In this document: piece by piece, positions 10,230 to 64,000 of the stretch
Numbering within the stretch: position 1 is the first letter of the stretch
Layout of the letters: every line of letters starts with the position of its first letter
DNA from: Pseudoflavonifractor phocaeensis
Lineage (GTDB): Bacteria; Bacillota; Clostridia; Oscillospirales; Oscillospiraceae
DNA: 64,000 nt
NCBI RefSeq assembly: GCF_021531815.1
Contig: NZ_JADYUM010000003.1
Span: 124,001 to 188,000, forward strand
Direction of reading: 5' to 3'
The notes under the pieces: model-generated
The model's input: the letters and a program-made list of their open reading frames with translations, nothing else
Database searches by the model: none
Told to the model about the DNA's origin: nothing
Position numbers and translations under genes: made by a program

Positions 10230-10301
10230 ATTTGATACACCTCAATTATTGATATATAAATTTGATGATAGGCACAAATTTTCAGATCGAAGCAGAAGGA
10301 C

Positions 10302-10421
10302 GAGATCTTCGTTTAAGGCGCTGTCGAAGGTAAGCGACAAAGCCTCCTGTCACAAAAGGAGGTGCATTTGCGAAGGGAGCCTTGAGACGCGGCCCTGAAA
10401 CGCGCTAAGAAACGAAATCTT
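10302..10421 (+). ncRNA. Candidate cloverleaf-like structured RNA element
   Basis: Between glmM and ruvB the DNA folds into a closed multi-stem figure. An outer stem pairs 302-314 with 410-421 (12 pairs, one bulge) and a second pairs 317-321 with 402-406. Inside are three hairpins: TGTCG/CGACA (322-339, 8-nt loop), CCTCCT/AGGAGG (343-362), and AGGG..CC/GG..CCCT (374-396); coordinates here are offset by 10000. G302, G317 and G342 pair with U on the plus strand, but would be A-C mismatches on the minus strand, so a plus-strand RNA is favoured. I do not recognise the family, and no clear promoter is seen. Confidence 0.5.
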
Positions 10422-10435
10422 GCCGTTCTGGCCGC

Positions 10436-24458: not shown

Positions 24459-24946
24459 GTAAAATTTTGGTTATTGGCCTATGGAACCTAAAACCTATGT
24501 TATGTAGGGCAAGGGCTCTGCCCTTGCCCTTTCCGGGTATCCGAAATACTGGGAGAAATCTGCGCACTTGAACACTTCGCGTGCGAGCGGGACGGGAGAT
24601 AGGGATATTTCGCCCCCGGGCGAGGTACTTTTGTAAAGATACAAAAGTACCCAAAAAATCTCCGGGGCTTCGGCCCCGGTCCCCAAGGGGCGTCCTACAA
24701 AAAAGCCTGCCTCACGTCCGGCGCCGATCCCCTGGTTTTGCCGCCCCTCCTTCCGGGCCTTCGGCCCTGGGTCAAGGGGACTTGGATTGGAACAGGCGCT
24801 GAATACTGCGCTTGGGTTTCACAACTATGCGGCGCGGTCCTTGACCGCGCTGGCCCGTCCATTGCATGCAGCTTGATTCAGTAGACACCTGTACCGGTTT
24901 GTCCCACAGAGCATAGACTCGCTTCTCTATAAACTAAAATTTATCT
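24459..24946 (+). repeat. Long intergenic repeat, copy 1 (MITE-like)
   Basis: Roughly 490 bp between ispG and rseP with no plausible gene. Ends are imperfect inverted repeats: TAAAATTTTGGTTATTG on the left, and (read inward from the right) GATAAATTTTAGTTTATAG. Inside, left to right: palindrome ggcaagggctctgcccttgcc (24508-24528), hairpin GGTACTTTTGTA/TACAAAAGTACC (24624-24651), hairpin CCGGGGC-TTCG-GCCCCGG (24662-24679), GGGCC-TTC-GGCCC near 24755, and the conserved block GTCCATTGCATGCAG near 24860. The right end overlaps the rseP stop codon. Confidence 0.88.
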
Positions 24947-26014
24947 TCCGAACAGCTTGCCCACGTCGCTGAGGGTCACCATCAGCATCAGGGACAGCAG
25001 CGCCGCCATGCCCGCCATATGGACGTATCCCTCGTACTTTGGCGGAATTTTTCTGCGGAACAGGCCGTACAACACCCCGTTGAGCAGCAAAAAGAAAATG
25101 CGTCCCCCATCCAGGGCAGGCAGAGGCAACAGGTTCATCACCGCCAGGTTGACGGCGATCAGGGCGGCAAAGGCCGCCATATTCTTGGCTGCGTCCAGAA
25201 GCGTAGGGGAAAGCTCGGGATTGCTGCCCACCTCGGTCATCACTTCCACGATACCCACCGGCCCGGACAGGTCCCGCAGGCCAACCGCGCCGCTGATCAG
25301 GTCCTCCAGGCTGAGCCACACCATGCGCACGTAGTCCAGCGCTCCATACCAGCTGAACAGCAGCTTATTGCCCAGGGTGGCGGGCAGCACTTCCATGCCG
25401 ATGCTCAGCCCCCGCAGATAGGTGGTCTCCCCCTTCTCGCCGGTCCGCTCCTGGAGGGGCATGTACAGACCCTCCAGCTTCACCTTCTGGCCGCCGCGCT
25501 CCACAACCCAGTCCACCGTATCCTCCGCGCGGCTCAAATACAGGGACACGTCGTCATAGCTGTACATCCGGTGTCCGTTGATGGATACCACCCGGTCGCC
25601 CGCCTGGAGGCCGCAGGTCTCCAACCCGTAGCCGTCCAGAAATCCGGCCACCGTGGGCATGACGAACCCACTGCGCTGGGAGTACAGCACCAGAATGATC
25701 AGCAGTCCGGTGAGAAAATTCATGGCCGCCCCGGCGCAGAGGATCAAAAATTTCTTCCAGCCCGCGGCCCGGCCGAAGGCCCCCGGGTCGGCGGAGTCAT
25801 CGTCCTCTCCCTCCATGGCGCAGTAACCGCCGATGGGAAGCGCCCGAACGCTGTAAAGGGTTTCTCCTTTCTCCCCGCTGAACAGAGCGGGACCCATCCC
25901 GATGGAGAACTCGTTGACCTTTACCCCCAGGCACTTGGCGGCGGTAAAGTGGCCCAACTCATGGGTGGCGATGAGGATACCGAAGATCAGGATGGCAACA
26001 AGATTATAAAGCAT
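24941..26014 (-). CDS. rseP: Site-2 metalloprotease RseP (M50 family)
   Basis: Intramembrane zinc protease that cleaves membrane-anchored anti-sigma factors or signal peptides. H18-E-L-G-H22 in ATHELGHFTAAKCLG is the zinc-binding and catalytic motif. A PDZ domain spans about 115-190 (GLQAGDRVVSINGHRM). The third ligand is in NLLPLPALDGGR near 305. About four membrane segments. 357 aa. The stop TAA (24943-24941) lies within the right end of repeat copy 1. Cluster neighbour of dxr, 25 bp apart. Confidence 0.97.
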   Translation of the reverse strand: MLYNLVAILIFGILIATHELGHFTAAKCLGVKVNEFSIGMGPALFSGEKGETLYSVRALPIGGYCAMEGEDDDSADPGAFGRAAGWKKFLILCAGAAMNFLTGLLIILVLYSQRSGFVMPTVAGFLDGYGLETCGLQAGDRVVSINGHRMYSYDDVSLYLSRAEDTVDWVVERGGQKVKLEGLYMPLQERTGEKGETTYLRGLSIGMEVLPATLGNKLLFSWYGALDYVRMVWLSLEDLISGAVGLRDLSGPVGIVEVMTEVGSNPELSPTLLDAAKNMAAFAALIAVNLAVMNLLPLPALDGGRIFFLLLNGVLYGLFRRKIPPKYEGYVHMAGMAALLSLMLMVTLSDVGKLFGR

Positions 26015-30751: not shown

Positions 30752-31241
30752 GCAATAAATTTTCGTTTCGCTGTCCATGGGAGCGAAAACCGATGTGATG
30801 TAGGGCAAGGGCTCTGCCCTTGCCCGTTTCGGGTGAGCAAAATGCTGGGAGAAATTTGCGCGCTTGGACACTTCTCCTACAGGCGGGACGGGGGATTAGG
30901 GAAGTTTCGTCCTCGGGCGAGGTACTTTTTTAGAGATACAAAAGTACCCAAAAAAACTCCGGGGCTTCGGCCCCGGTCCCCAAGGGGCGTCCTACAAAAA
31001 GCCTGCCTCACGTCCGGCGCACATTCCCTGGTTTTGCCACTCCTCCTTCCGGGCCTTCGGCCCTGAGTTAAGGGGGCTTGGATTGGAACAGCCGCTGAAT
31101 CCTGCGCCTGGGTCTCACGACTGTGCGGCGTGGTCTTTGACCGCGATGGGCCGTCCATTGCATGCAGTCTGATCCATCGGCAGTCCGCATAGGTCAGTCC
31201 TACAGAGCGTAAAACTGCTACCTCATAAACGAAAATTTTCC
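30752..31241 (+). repeat. Long intergenic repeat, copy 2 (MITE-like)
   Basis: About 490 bp upstream of pyrH and before the ribU promoter. Ends: left CAATAAATTTTCGTTTCG, right (inward) GAAAATTTTCGTTTATG; both ends of this copy share AAATTTTCGTTT. Palindrome at 30804-30824, hairpin GGTACTTTTTTA..TACAAAAGTACC near 30921, CCGGGGC-TTCG-GCCCCGG near 30959, GTCCATTGCATGCAG near 31152. Same orientation as copy 1. No credible gene on either strand. Confidence 0.88.
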
Positions 31242-31331: not shown

Positions 31332-31356
31332 GTGCCACAGACAACTGAATCCAATG

Positions 31357-31472
31357 TCTTCAGGGCGGGGTGCAACTCCCCACTGGCGGTACAGTCCGCG
31401 ACCGGACGCAGCGATGCGTCCGCTGACCCGGTGAAACTCCGGGACCAACGGTATAGTCCGGATGGAAGAAGA
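31357..31472 (+). promoter_or_regulatory. FMN riboswitch (RFN element)
   Basis: All conserved RFN blocks are present in order: TCTTCAGGGCGGGGTG, AACTCCCCACTGGCGGT, AGTCCGCGACC, a variable arm (GGACGCAGCGATGCGTCC), GCTGACCCGGTGAAACTCC, GGGACCAACGGTATAGTCC, GGATGGAAGAAGA. The first and last blocks pair to close P1. It binds FMN and lowers ribU expression when flavin is plentiful. Downstream (31510-31577) CACCTCCTT..TTTTGAC pairs with GTCAAAA..AAGGAGTG, a long arm that would hide the ribU ribosome site, so translational control is inferred. Confidence 0.97.
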
Positions 31473-31585
31473 TGTGTGTAGAACAATATTCACGCGCGTT
31501 TGCGCGGGTTGCGCACCTCCTTGATTGTTTTGACACCTGGAAGGCATGGCTTTTCGGGCGTCAAAAATTTTAAGGAGTGTTTTTT

Positions 31586-32659: not shown

Positions 32660-32777
32660 ATACAGTTTCCTCCCTAAAAATACGCGTCAGGGAAGGGACG
32701 ACCCGGGAGGGAAGGTTACTGACGGGAGCGCGCCGCCCGCGGACGGACTACCAACCGCCCTGTGTTTTTATCCCTGC
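32660..32777 (-). promoter_or_regulatory. Structured leader of yjdF (candidate azaaromatic riboswitch)
   Basis: Long GC-rich leader with several complementary tracts. The ribosome site GGGAGG (32674-32669) can pair with CCTCCC (32710-32705); GGGCGG, CGTCCGCGGGCGG and CTTCCCTGACG/CGTCAG are further arms. The position before a YjdF gene is the main argument. I did not match the consensus from memory, so the class is inferred. Confidence 0.55.
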
Positions 32778-32783
32778 CTTTTG

Positions 32784-34590: not shown

Positions 34591-35104
34591 TAAATTTTGG
34601 TTTATTGACCAGCAAGTCTATGCTCTGCAGGACCAACCGGTGCGGTTTTCTGCTGAATCAAGCTACATGCAATGGACGGACCAGTGCGGCCAAGTACCAC
34701 GCCTCACAGCTGTGAAACCCAGGCGCAGGATTCAGCGGCTGTTCCAATCCGGTTTTCCCTGACCCAGGGCCGAAGGCCCGGAAGGCGGGGCCGCAAAACC
34801 AGGGAATGTGCGCCGGACGTGAGGCAGGCTTTTTTGTAGGACGCCCCTTGGGGGCCGGGGCCGAAGCCCCGGAGATTTTTTGGGTACTTTTGTATCTCTA
34901 CAAAAGTACCTCGCCCGAGGGCGAAACATCCTTATCTCCCGTCCCGCCCGCAGGCGAGATTTTCAATTCTCTACTATTCGGCGGCCCCAAGGGTCCGCCT
35001 TACCTGAACGCAGAATAACGTCCGTCAAAGGCAAGGGCAGAGCCCTTGCCCTACATCATATCAGTTTCCGCTTCCATGGGCTGCGAAGCCAGAATTTGTA
35101 TTTT
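34591..35104 (-). repeat. Long intergenic repeat, copy 3 (MITE-like, inverted)
   Basis: About 510 bp between phoA and yibE/F, opposite in orientation to copies 1 and 2. Ends: TAAATTTTGGTTTATTG at 34591 and, read inward from 35104, ACAAATTCTGGCTTCG. Palindrome at 35030-35050, GGTACTTTTGTA/TACAAAAGTACC near 34883-34910, GGGGCTTCGGCCCC equivalent near 34856-34872, CATGCAATGGAC near 34667. A stretch near 34972-35010 (TCGGCGGCCCCAAGGGTCCGCC) is not in copies 1 and 2. No gene seen in this 604-bp gap. Confidence 0.88.
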
Positions 35105-62909: not shown

Positions 62910-63308
62910 TGGCAAATTTTAGTTTTCTGAGGATTTCGCCTGCGGGCGGGACGGGGGGCGGAGAAGTTTCGCCCCCGGGCGAGCTACTTTCCAGGGAAGG
63001 AAAGTAGCCAAAGTTCCCCGGGCCTGCGGGCCCGGACCCGATGAAAGTTCGATTGGGAAAGTATTCCTTGCGTCCGGCGCGCATTCCTTGGTTTTGCTGC
63101 CCCGCCATCCGGGCCTTTGGCCCTGAGCCGAGTGAATTTGAATACAGACAACCGCTGAATACCGGCACCTGCGTTTCCGAATTGTGCGGCGTAGTGCTTG
63201 GCCGGCCTGGCCTTCTCCCGGCCATCTTTTGGTGACTTTTGGATGGCTCCAAAATTCACTCGCCGCCGCAGCGGTGAAATCTCCTAACCCTATAGACTAA
63301 AACTTACC
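62910..63308 (+). repeat. Long intergenic repeat, copy 4 (shorter, diverged)
   Basis: About 400 bp between fabK and fabH. Ends: left GGCAAATTTTAGTTTTC, right (inward) GGTAAGTTTTAGTCTATAGG. It lacks the left palindrome of copies 1-3. Hairpins are present with changed sequence: GCTACTTTCC-AGGGAA-GGAAAGTAGC (62983-63008) and CCGGGCC-TGCG-GGCCCGG (63018-63035), then GGGCC-TTT-GGCCC near 63113. The right end includes the fabH stop codon. No gene found; in particular no acpP. Confidence 0.8.
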
Positions 63309-64000
63309 ACTTGAGCAGGGCGCCTGCCCAGGTGAGGCCGCCGCCGAAGCCCACGGTGAGGACCCGCATCCCGGGCTTCAATGTTCCTGCCTGGGACAGC
63401 TCGTCCAACGCCATGGGGATGCTGGCCGCCGAAGTATTTCCGTAGCGGTCCATATTTTTATAAAACAGCCCTTCCCGGGCGCCGAGTTTTTTGGCCACAA
63501 AGTCGATGATGCGGGCGTTGGCCTGATGGCAGACCACCAGGTCCAGGTCGTTTATCCCGCAGCCCTCCGCCTCCAGCAGCTGCCGAATCGACTTCTCCAC
63601 CACCTCCACCGCGAAGCGGAACACCGCTTTGCCGTCCATATGGACGGTGGAGCGTACCGGGCCGGGGCCCTCCACCATGATGCTCTCCGCGTCGCCCCGG
63701 GAGCCGAACACGGTGTGCCACACCGCCTCCTCGTCCCGGCGGAACACCGCCGCACCCGCGCCGTCCCCGAAGAGGACGCAGGTGTTCCGGTCGGTCATAT
63801 CCAGCACCCGGCTGATGACCTCGCAGCCCACCACCAGGGCGTGGGGCCGGGGGGCGTCCGCCAGCAGAGCGTGGGCGGTCTTCATGCCATACAGGAAGCC
63901 GGCGCAGGCGGCATTCAGGTCGAAACAGACGGTGTCCTCCTTCAGGCCCAGTTCCTTTTGCAGCAGGCAGGCCGTGGAGGGGCTGGCGAAGTCTGGGCTG
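63304..64000 (-). CDS. fabH: Beta-ketoacyl-ACP synthase III (cut by window edge)
   Basis: Starts fatty-acid synthesis by condensing acyl-CoA with malonyl-ACP. The N-terminal third is beyond the right edge. Frame stays open to 64000: SPDFASPSTACLLQ, then active-site cysteine in DLNAACAGFLYG, CHQANARIIDF with the catalytic histidine, and MDRYGNTSAASIPMAL with the asparagine. It ends LTVGFGGGLTWAGALLKW. The stop TAA is at 63306-63304. Confidence 0.97.
   Translation of the reverse strand, partial: SPDFASPSTACLLQKELGLKEDTVCFDLNAACAGFLYGMKTAHALLADAPRPHALVVGCEVISRVLDMTDRNTCVLFGDGAGAAVFRRDEEAVWHTVFGSRGDAESIMVEGPGPVRSTVHMDGKAVFRFAVEVVEKSIRQLLEAEGCGINDLDLVVCHQANARIIDFVAKKLGAREGLFYKNMDRYGNTSAASIPMALDELSQAGTLKPGMRVLTVGFGGGLTWAGALLKW

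Follow-up and report, generated by a model that had tools for sequence, protein, structure and literature searches.

The window analysed here (64,000 nucleotides of Pseudoflavonifractor phocaeensis DNA, from a draft genome of 2.67 Mb and 45 contigs that is called G000 below) holds at 24459, and at three further places, an intergenic repeat with inverted ends and internal hairpins; the question raised by this locus is whether such a repeat is a miniature mobile element, a dispersed structured RNA or a piece of DNA fixed at the same loci in all relatives. The preferred reading, given a probability of about 0.6, is that of a non-autonomous, MITE-like container whose REP-like cargo was replaced in place, the ends being confined to two sister species among the genomes searched. 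Mobile repeats are usually dated by the sites that genomes share; site and content with separate histories, as proposed here, would mislead such dating, and the turnover of mobile DNA at fixed sites would become directly observable in strains. For specialists, the interest lies in this separation of site from content and in a covarying hairpin with a pseudoknot. Loci in G000, in the genome of the sister species (Pseudoflavonifractor phocaeensis An901; G040) and in the other genomes compared are labelled by L-numbers (L011, L197 and so on).

Window copies and the extent of the family

The four long copies reported in a preliminary description of the window are all present, and the coordinates given there were accurate within a few bases. 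The family ends are inverted sequences of 13 bp, TAAATTTTNGTTT, and an element runs TAAATTTTNGTTT..AAACNAAAATTTA; with up to two mismatches, the end pattern occurs at 12 places in the window (0.87 expected; none of 100 shuffles reached 12). Copy 1 (24460-24943, + strand) measures 484 bp between a left terminal inverted repeat with one extra A (24460-24473, +) and a perfect right one (24931-24943, −), and its right end supplies the stop codon (TTA, that is TAA; 24941-24943) of an M50-peptidase gene on the − strand (24941-26014). Its interior contains a GTAG-tagged palindrome, GTAGGGCAAGGGCTCTGCCCTTGCCC (24504-24529, +), so labelled by its likeness to the REPs described in PMC3733652, followed by a GGCGA / CTTT..AAAG hairpin with a loop-downstream helix (24609-24667, +; 72.5 bits under covariance model R1) and by the hairpin CTCCGGGGC-TTCG-GCCCCGG (24660-24679, +), which is changed in a compensatory manner in copy 4. 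Copy 2 (30756-31239, +) lies between an amino-acid-kinase-family gene and an FMN riboswitch (31352-31477, +), ahead of which it stops by about 110 bp, and has its GTAG-tagged palindrome at 30800-30825 (+) and its R1 motif at 30906-30964 (+; 65.4 bits). Copy 3 (34591-35098, −) follows closely on a terminator-like hairpin that comes after an alkaline phosphatase gene, with an R1 motif at 34867-34925 (−; 72.1 bits) and a GTAG-tagged palindrome at 35030-35054 (−). Copy 4 (62913-63306, +) contains an inverted pair of R1 motifs, the left one a GCTAC..GTAGC variant (62968-63023, +; 43.1 bits) and the right one a GTGACTTTTGG variant (63216-63274, −; 55.3 bits), and its right end supplies the stop codon of an ACP synthase III gene (63304-63885, −). 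Ungapped blocks of copies 1-3 agree at 79-94%; copy 4 belongs to the same family but has diverged (70% over 281 bp). The window also holds an azaaromatic (yjdF) riboswitch (32678-32781, −).

Beyond the window, 72 end-like sites with at most one mismatch were counted in G000 against 4 for a reversed control pattern, and BLAST found 56 places resembling copy 1. Perfect ends number 40 in G000 and 85 in G040 (control 0 in both), and the other 62 of the 64 genus genomes hold 0-2 ends each; by the end pattern, only G000 and G040 stand above background. G040 is also the nearest relative among the 64, judged by the flanks of site 24459. Paired copies number 35 in G000 and 33 in the fetched stretches of G040. 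The size of about 0.4-0.5 kb first ascribed to the family describes the four window copies, but element lengths vary from 58 to 800 bp in G000 and from 145 to 854 bp in G040. Two types recur: in one, of about 490 bp, a GTAG-tagged palindrome lies close to an end, and the other, of about 680 bp, contains two hairpins facing inward. Some copies, L012 for example, are mixed, which suggests that the two types recombine. The interior of the 673-bp type finds some match, mostly to its hairpin ends, in 37 of the 64 genus genomes, G000 included. The elements seem to encode nothing, as had been supposed: at an E threshold of 0.1, Pfam gave no family for six long stop-to-stop frames (93-155 aa) taken from three elements.

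A covarying hairpin module

Two compensatory changes had been noted between copies 1 and 4; both are present in the sequence and belong to a wider motif, GGCGA-hairpin-CAAA, in which the loop pairs with a downstream segment and both the stem and the loop-downstream helix covary. The motif was assessed in two sets. A1 comprises 58 distinct sequences gathered with a pattern that fixes GGCGA, CTTT, AAAG, CAAA and a 6-base loop; this settles 4 of the 11 pairs in the stem and sets no pairing requirement on the loop or on the rest of the arms. A2, the held-out set, comprises 28 matches (26 distinct) in five genomes of other genera, found by a model that was built from A1 and holds the stem but not the loop-downstream helix. 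Across the 11-bp stem and the 5-bp helix between the loop and the segment after CAAA, 95.6% of cells in A1 are paired (70.4% shuffled; at most 49.1% slid), and the covariation score is 0.634 against 0.161. The loop-downstream helix alone is 89.0% paired in A1 (67.1% shuffled; at most 49.7% slid) and 80.0% paired in the 26 distinct sequences of A2 (61.5% shuffled; at most 46.0% slid), where its last pair fails in 13 of 26. CTTT and AAAG are nearly constant in A2 too, their constancy in A1 being imposed by the search pattern.

Relatedness among the sequences is allowed for by the slid controls and not by the shuffles, and the measures that it inflates least are the counts of pairs changed on both sides and of further pair types. 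In A1, 12 pairs are changed on both sides against 10.8 (a value reached by 90 of 500 shuffles) and 27 further pair types occur against 27.5 (373 of 500), neither above shuffles; in A2, 12 pairs are changed on both sides against 8.7, which no shuffle of 500 reached, and the further pair types (229 of 500) do not exceed the shuffles. For the loop-downstream helix alone, neither count rises above shuffles in either set. Against shuffled and slid controls, the dispersed structured element surmised earlier is thereby upheld on most measures of covariation, the held-out set included, and is not distinguished from shuffles on two of the five.

Whether the structure exists in RNA or as a DNA cruciform had been left undecided. 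G-U pairs make up 6 of about 887 standard pairs in A1 (about 655 without the four pattern-fixed pairs) and 3 of about 380 in A2, and because they are so rare DNA is favoured over RNA, without proof; this poverty in G-U suggests a way to separate DNA from RNA structure by sequence alone. Covariation of both stem and loop-downstream helix, the position of elements behind genes and the TTCG loops in GC-rich hairpins, which are very stable as RNA, would all suit a role in transcripts, as 3′ untranslated regions or as terminators that share a conserved pseudoknot, a reading that is nonetheless doubtful given the G-U counts, the lack of an Rfam match and the occurrence of the motif in inward inverted pairs, as may be expected of DNA ends. 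Such pairs number 12 among 47 places in G000, and another 12 in a 41-item count over the fetched loci of other genus members (in which L114 and L218 are one locus counted twice). No Rfam family was found at gathering score over the window elements or seven further loci, and the matches seen with permissive thresholds all lay below gathering scores. Plain transcription terminators are a further candidate reading.

A mutational origin of the covariation, in which template switching between arms corrects imperfect palindromes without any selection, is rather doubtful too. Correction of this kind is a known mechanism, and it would account for the near-perfect complementarity of the arms and the scarcity of G-U intermediates in them, but it does not readily explain why the loop-downstream helix also covaries in both A1 and A2. 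The pseudoknot hairpin is a covarying unit absent from Rfam: with strict filters, model R1 matches 6 of 117 genomes of the order, G000 among them, from three families, and within the genus this internal module also occurs without the ends described above. A scan of viral contigs for the G000 hairpin gave no match.

Gene ends, insertion junctions and candidate enzymes

Of 151 element ends in the two genomes, 49 supply an open frame of at least 60 codons with an in-frame TAA at offset 0 and a further 10 supply such a frame with TAG at +7; among the 66 paired elements 39 have the offset-0 TAA on at least one side. At site 24459, all 20 other species compared have 6-234 bp between the two genes, and their stretches contain no end with at most one mismatch. 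The natural stop of the M50-peptidase gene, read by hand, is the same codon in 15 of the 20 relatives, namely those whose alignment extends to 5 bases or fewer from the end of the gene. The gene before L037, by eye taken for pyrE, has 13 readable rows, namely those read on its own strand: relatives terminate at the same codon in 4 of them and one codon further on in the other 9. Stop codons are thus found at the ends themselves, and insertion at a natural stop is read from the comparison at these few loci. In the proposed mechanism, the ends TAAATTTTNGTTT..AAACNAAAATTTA would be what is recognised for movement, and insertions would be mostly intergenic, often at or directly behind a stop codon, the end keeping or supplying the stop.

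The first flanking base, reading outward from the element, is a pyrimidine at 121 of 132 ends. No target duplication was detected: for lengths of 1-10 outside the ends, none of the 66 elements has a flank identity of 4-10 bp, and flank match rates lie within 2 sd of permuted pairs. IS630-type MITEs duplicate a TA target. A TA duplication lying inside the ends fits L195 and perhaps L027; it does not fit L011, where two TA stand in a row at the junction, and had the element entered a TAA or TAG stop at its TA, the base after the right end would not be expected to be a pyrimidine. A TA shared with the ends might still be a target duplication. The alternative, in which the target TAA is kept once and the site grows by 3 bp less than the element, agrees with site 24459, L027 and L201/L274 but not with L011; what these junction comparisons imply differs from one to another by a few bases.

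No transposase or recombinase was found between these ends (G000 and 63 genomes by end pattern, with the fetched stretches read), and no longer autonomous element was seen by end pattern or in the fetched stretches. Both assemblies are interrupted at these repeats, and a gap between contigs could therefore conceal an autonomous copy. A Y1 transposase (PF01797) has one short match in each genome, of 23.7 bits in G000 and 28.7 bits in G040 (just over the cut-off of 23), and is matched in 6 of the 8 genus genomes searched; the Y1 family is shown by the match, and RAYT is the inferred identity. Neither Y1 locus of G000 and G040 has ends with at most two mismatches nearby, and the ten loci of the PF01797 search contain no R1 motif. 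The Y1 genes may serve the GTAG palindromes. In the Y1 genes L330:1291-1776 and L329:1258-1788, the stretches GQGLCPC and GRGLAP look, by eye, like in-frame translations of the GTAG-tagged palindrome that the genome in question carries, as though the palindrome had inserted there.

IS200/IS605-type single-strand transposition inserts behind a fixed short target without duplication and involves subterminal hairpins; the elements may resemble this system in those respects, and their symmetrical ends do not fit it. Bacterial MITEs such as RUP and Correia elements (PMC3049150, PMC2649163) are among the closest known systems. Like such MITEs, the elements are short, intergenic and multicopy, with inverted ends and no gene found; unlike them, they show no target duplication and no matching transposase, their interiors appear replaced at conserved sites and their ends coincide with stop codons. 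GTAG-tagged palindromes are reported in PMC3733652 as moved by RAYT transposases, and the GTAG termini of REPs as supplying the stop codon TAG to flanking frames. GTAG REPs and REPINs (PMC3733652, PMC3116915) are matched here by the GTAG-tagged palindrome inside the elements, by the inward hairpin pairs and by the Y1 match; the GGCGA/CTTT unit differs in its other tag and its loop-downstream helix, and the outer ends are not REPs. By reading, the GTAG tag stands beside the palindrome of the interior module GTAGGGCAAGGGCTCTGCCCTTGCC only; on the GGCGA/CTTT hairpin it occurs in none of the 28 A2 rows at the tag position (in the 58 sequences of A1, GGCGA is imposed by the pattern). Intrastrand triplex repeats, too, are dispersed intergenic hairpins with a third segment alongside, but according to PMC4666352 they need homopurine stretches and Hoogsteen pairing, whereas the third segment here covaries with the loop by Watson-Crick pairing. 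No named family matching the elements was recognised in the open-licence literature searched.

The earlier suggestion of a miniature mobile element is largely borne out by the shared ends, the many copies, the frames without Pfam matches and the 20 species without ends at site 24459; neither a target duplication nor a transposase with these ends was found. The family is real and unusual; because a target duplication was not seen, "MITE-like" describes it better than "MITE".

Shared sites and differing interiors in the sister species

G000 was compared site by site with G040; flanks at the sites are mostly 80-92% alike. Of the 35 paired G000 elements, 31 could be placed in the fetched parts of G040 (L012, L017, L019 and L095 were not assessable and lie outside the count), and 24 of the 31 have ends there on at least one side, a distance of as much as 70 bp being tolerated between the aligned flank and the end; L027, despite a 3-mismatch match 39 bp away, was counted as not shared, which lowered the number from 25 to 24. 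All four window sites are among the 24, copies 2 and 3 included, and in 18 of the 24 the sharing is tight, the flank alignment stopping no more than 10 bp short of the end and the end in G040 lying at most 4 bp away. The remaining 7 lack ends in G040, and one of them, L029, keeps a worn remnant. Site matching in the first G040 stretches alone would be biased because these were fetched for holding ends; nine unmatched sites were then looked up regardless of content. In the reverse direction, of 36 G040 elements 34 were assessable, and 26 of these have an end in G000, worn remnants with up to three mismatches being counted (23 of 31 when three elements fetched via G000 flanks are excluded). Not all sites are old, since 8 of the 34 have no end in G000, and sites where the other species has no element include L011, L016, L025, L027 and L201/L274.

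Independent insertion at hot spots, by a specificity for a stop codon with a purine before and a pyrimidine after, would make such coincidences unrelated to descent and any in-place replacement superfluous. The preference for stop codons and for an outward pyrimidine suits this, as does L013/L187, where the insertions in the two species are neighbouring rather than identical; it is nevertheless unlikely, for 24 of 31 sites coincide, 18 of them tightly, and the flank preference would seem far too weak to pick a few dozen of a genome's stops. Worn remnants in G000 where G040 has fresh copies (near 10257-10423 of the window, L105 and L098) likewise stand against it. The first of these (10257-10423, coordinates by eye) is a worn element with recognisable ends TAAATTTG.. 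and ..AAACGAAATCTTG, and its fresh counterpart in G040 is L197:976-1236.

Interiors behave otherwise. At 15 shared sites with complete elements on both sides, the orthologue covers between 0 and 0.21 of the interior in G000 and between 0 and 0.18 in G040, and none of it at 10 of the 15. The best other copy in the same genome covers 0.80 or more of the interior at 13 of the 15 sites in G000 (exceptions L094, 0.34, and L039, 0.32) and 0.96 or more at 14 of the 15 in G040 (exception the partner of L036, 0.50). At L013, L020, L028 and L038, outside this table, and at site 24459, the interior sharing is 0-0.15. The G040 copies are in many cases up to 99% alike among themselves, though their sites are common with G000. 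A stretch of a viral contig, compared with the fetched loci and 98.6% alike to G040 over 5345 bp, looks like host DNA from a second strain of the sister species; it has the G040-type interior at site 24459, where it and G040 both carry GTAG-tagged palindromes between the ends. The possibility that the elements are fixed at the same loci in all relatives holds for the sites in so far as 24 of 31 are common with the sister species, but not for the differing interiors, nor for the rest of the genus at site 24459, the sole site tested there. By these comparisons most ends and sites appear to predate the species split, and the contents to be younger and species-specific.

Both the difference of interiors between species and their similarity within each genome are directly observed, and from them replacement is inferred. 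In the container reading, the cargo would consist of REP-like palindromic modules, GTAG-tagged palindromes and the GGCGA/CTTT pseudoknot hairpin, often in inward pairs, and after the species split the cargo at conserved sites would have been replaced by copies of a genome-specific type. The likeliest route would be that a new copy inserts at or beside an old one, which is then lost between the repeated ends; exchange at the ends is a further possible route. Tandem traces consistent with the first route are weakly enriched: 16 end-like sites lie within 100 bp of 132 ends, 15 of them with three mismatches, against 7.0 expected from a mononucleotide shuffle, and the pattern of a head-to-tail junction was not found beside the elements.

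Homogenisation of the interiors within each genome by gene conversion among copies, with no new insertion, would explain why so many G040 copies at sites common with G000 are up to 99% alike. Ordinary recombination needs more homology than the 13-16 bp or so of end sequence that would in many cases be all a donor and a recipient have in common, and gene conversion is judged improbable. Improbable, too, is a cassette-exchange platform in which an enzyme would recognise the ends, remove one palindromic cargo and put another in its place, so that fixed sites at gene ends would be refilled repeatedly, with a DNA pseudoknot that the enzyme reads keeping the cargo in shape.

Some further loci vary in other ways. 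The two flanks of the G040 element L184:1038-1233 match two different G000 contigs, as if rearranged at the element. At site 24459, two other species (L212, L216) have a different intergenic insert with a TCCTTTTCTCTCGAGAAAAGGA hairpin, and in another species (L222) a pair of GTAG-tagged palindromes is inserted ahead of the same FMN riboswitch that follows copy 2 in the window.
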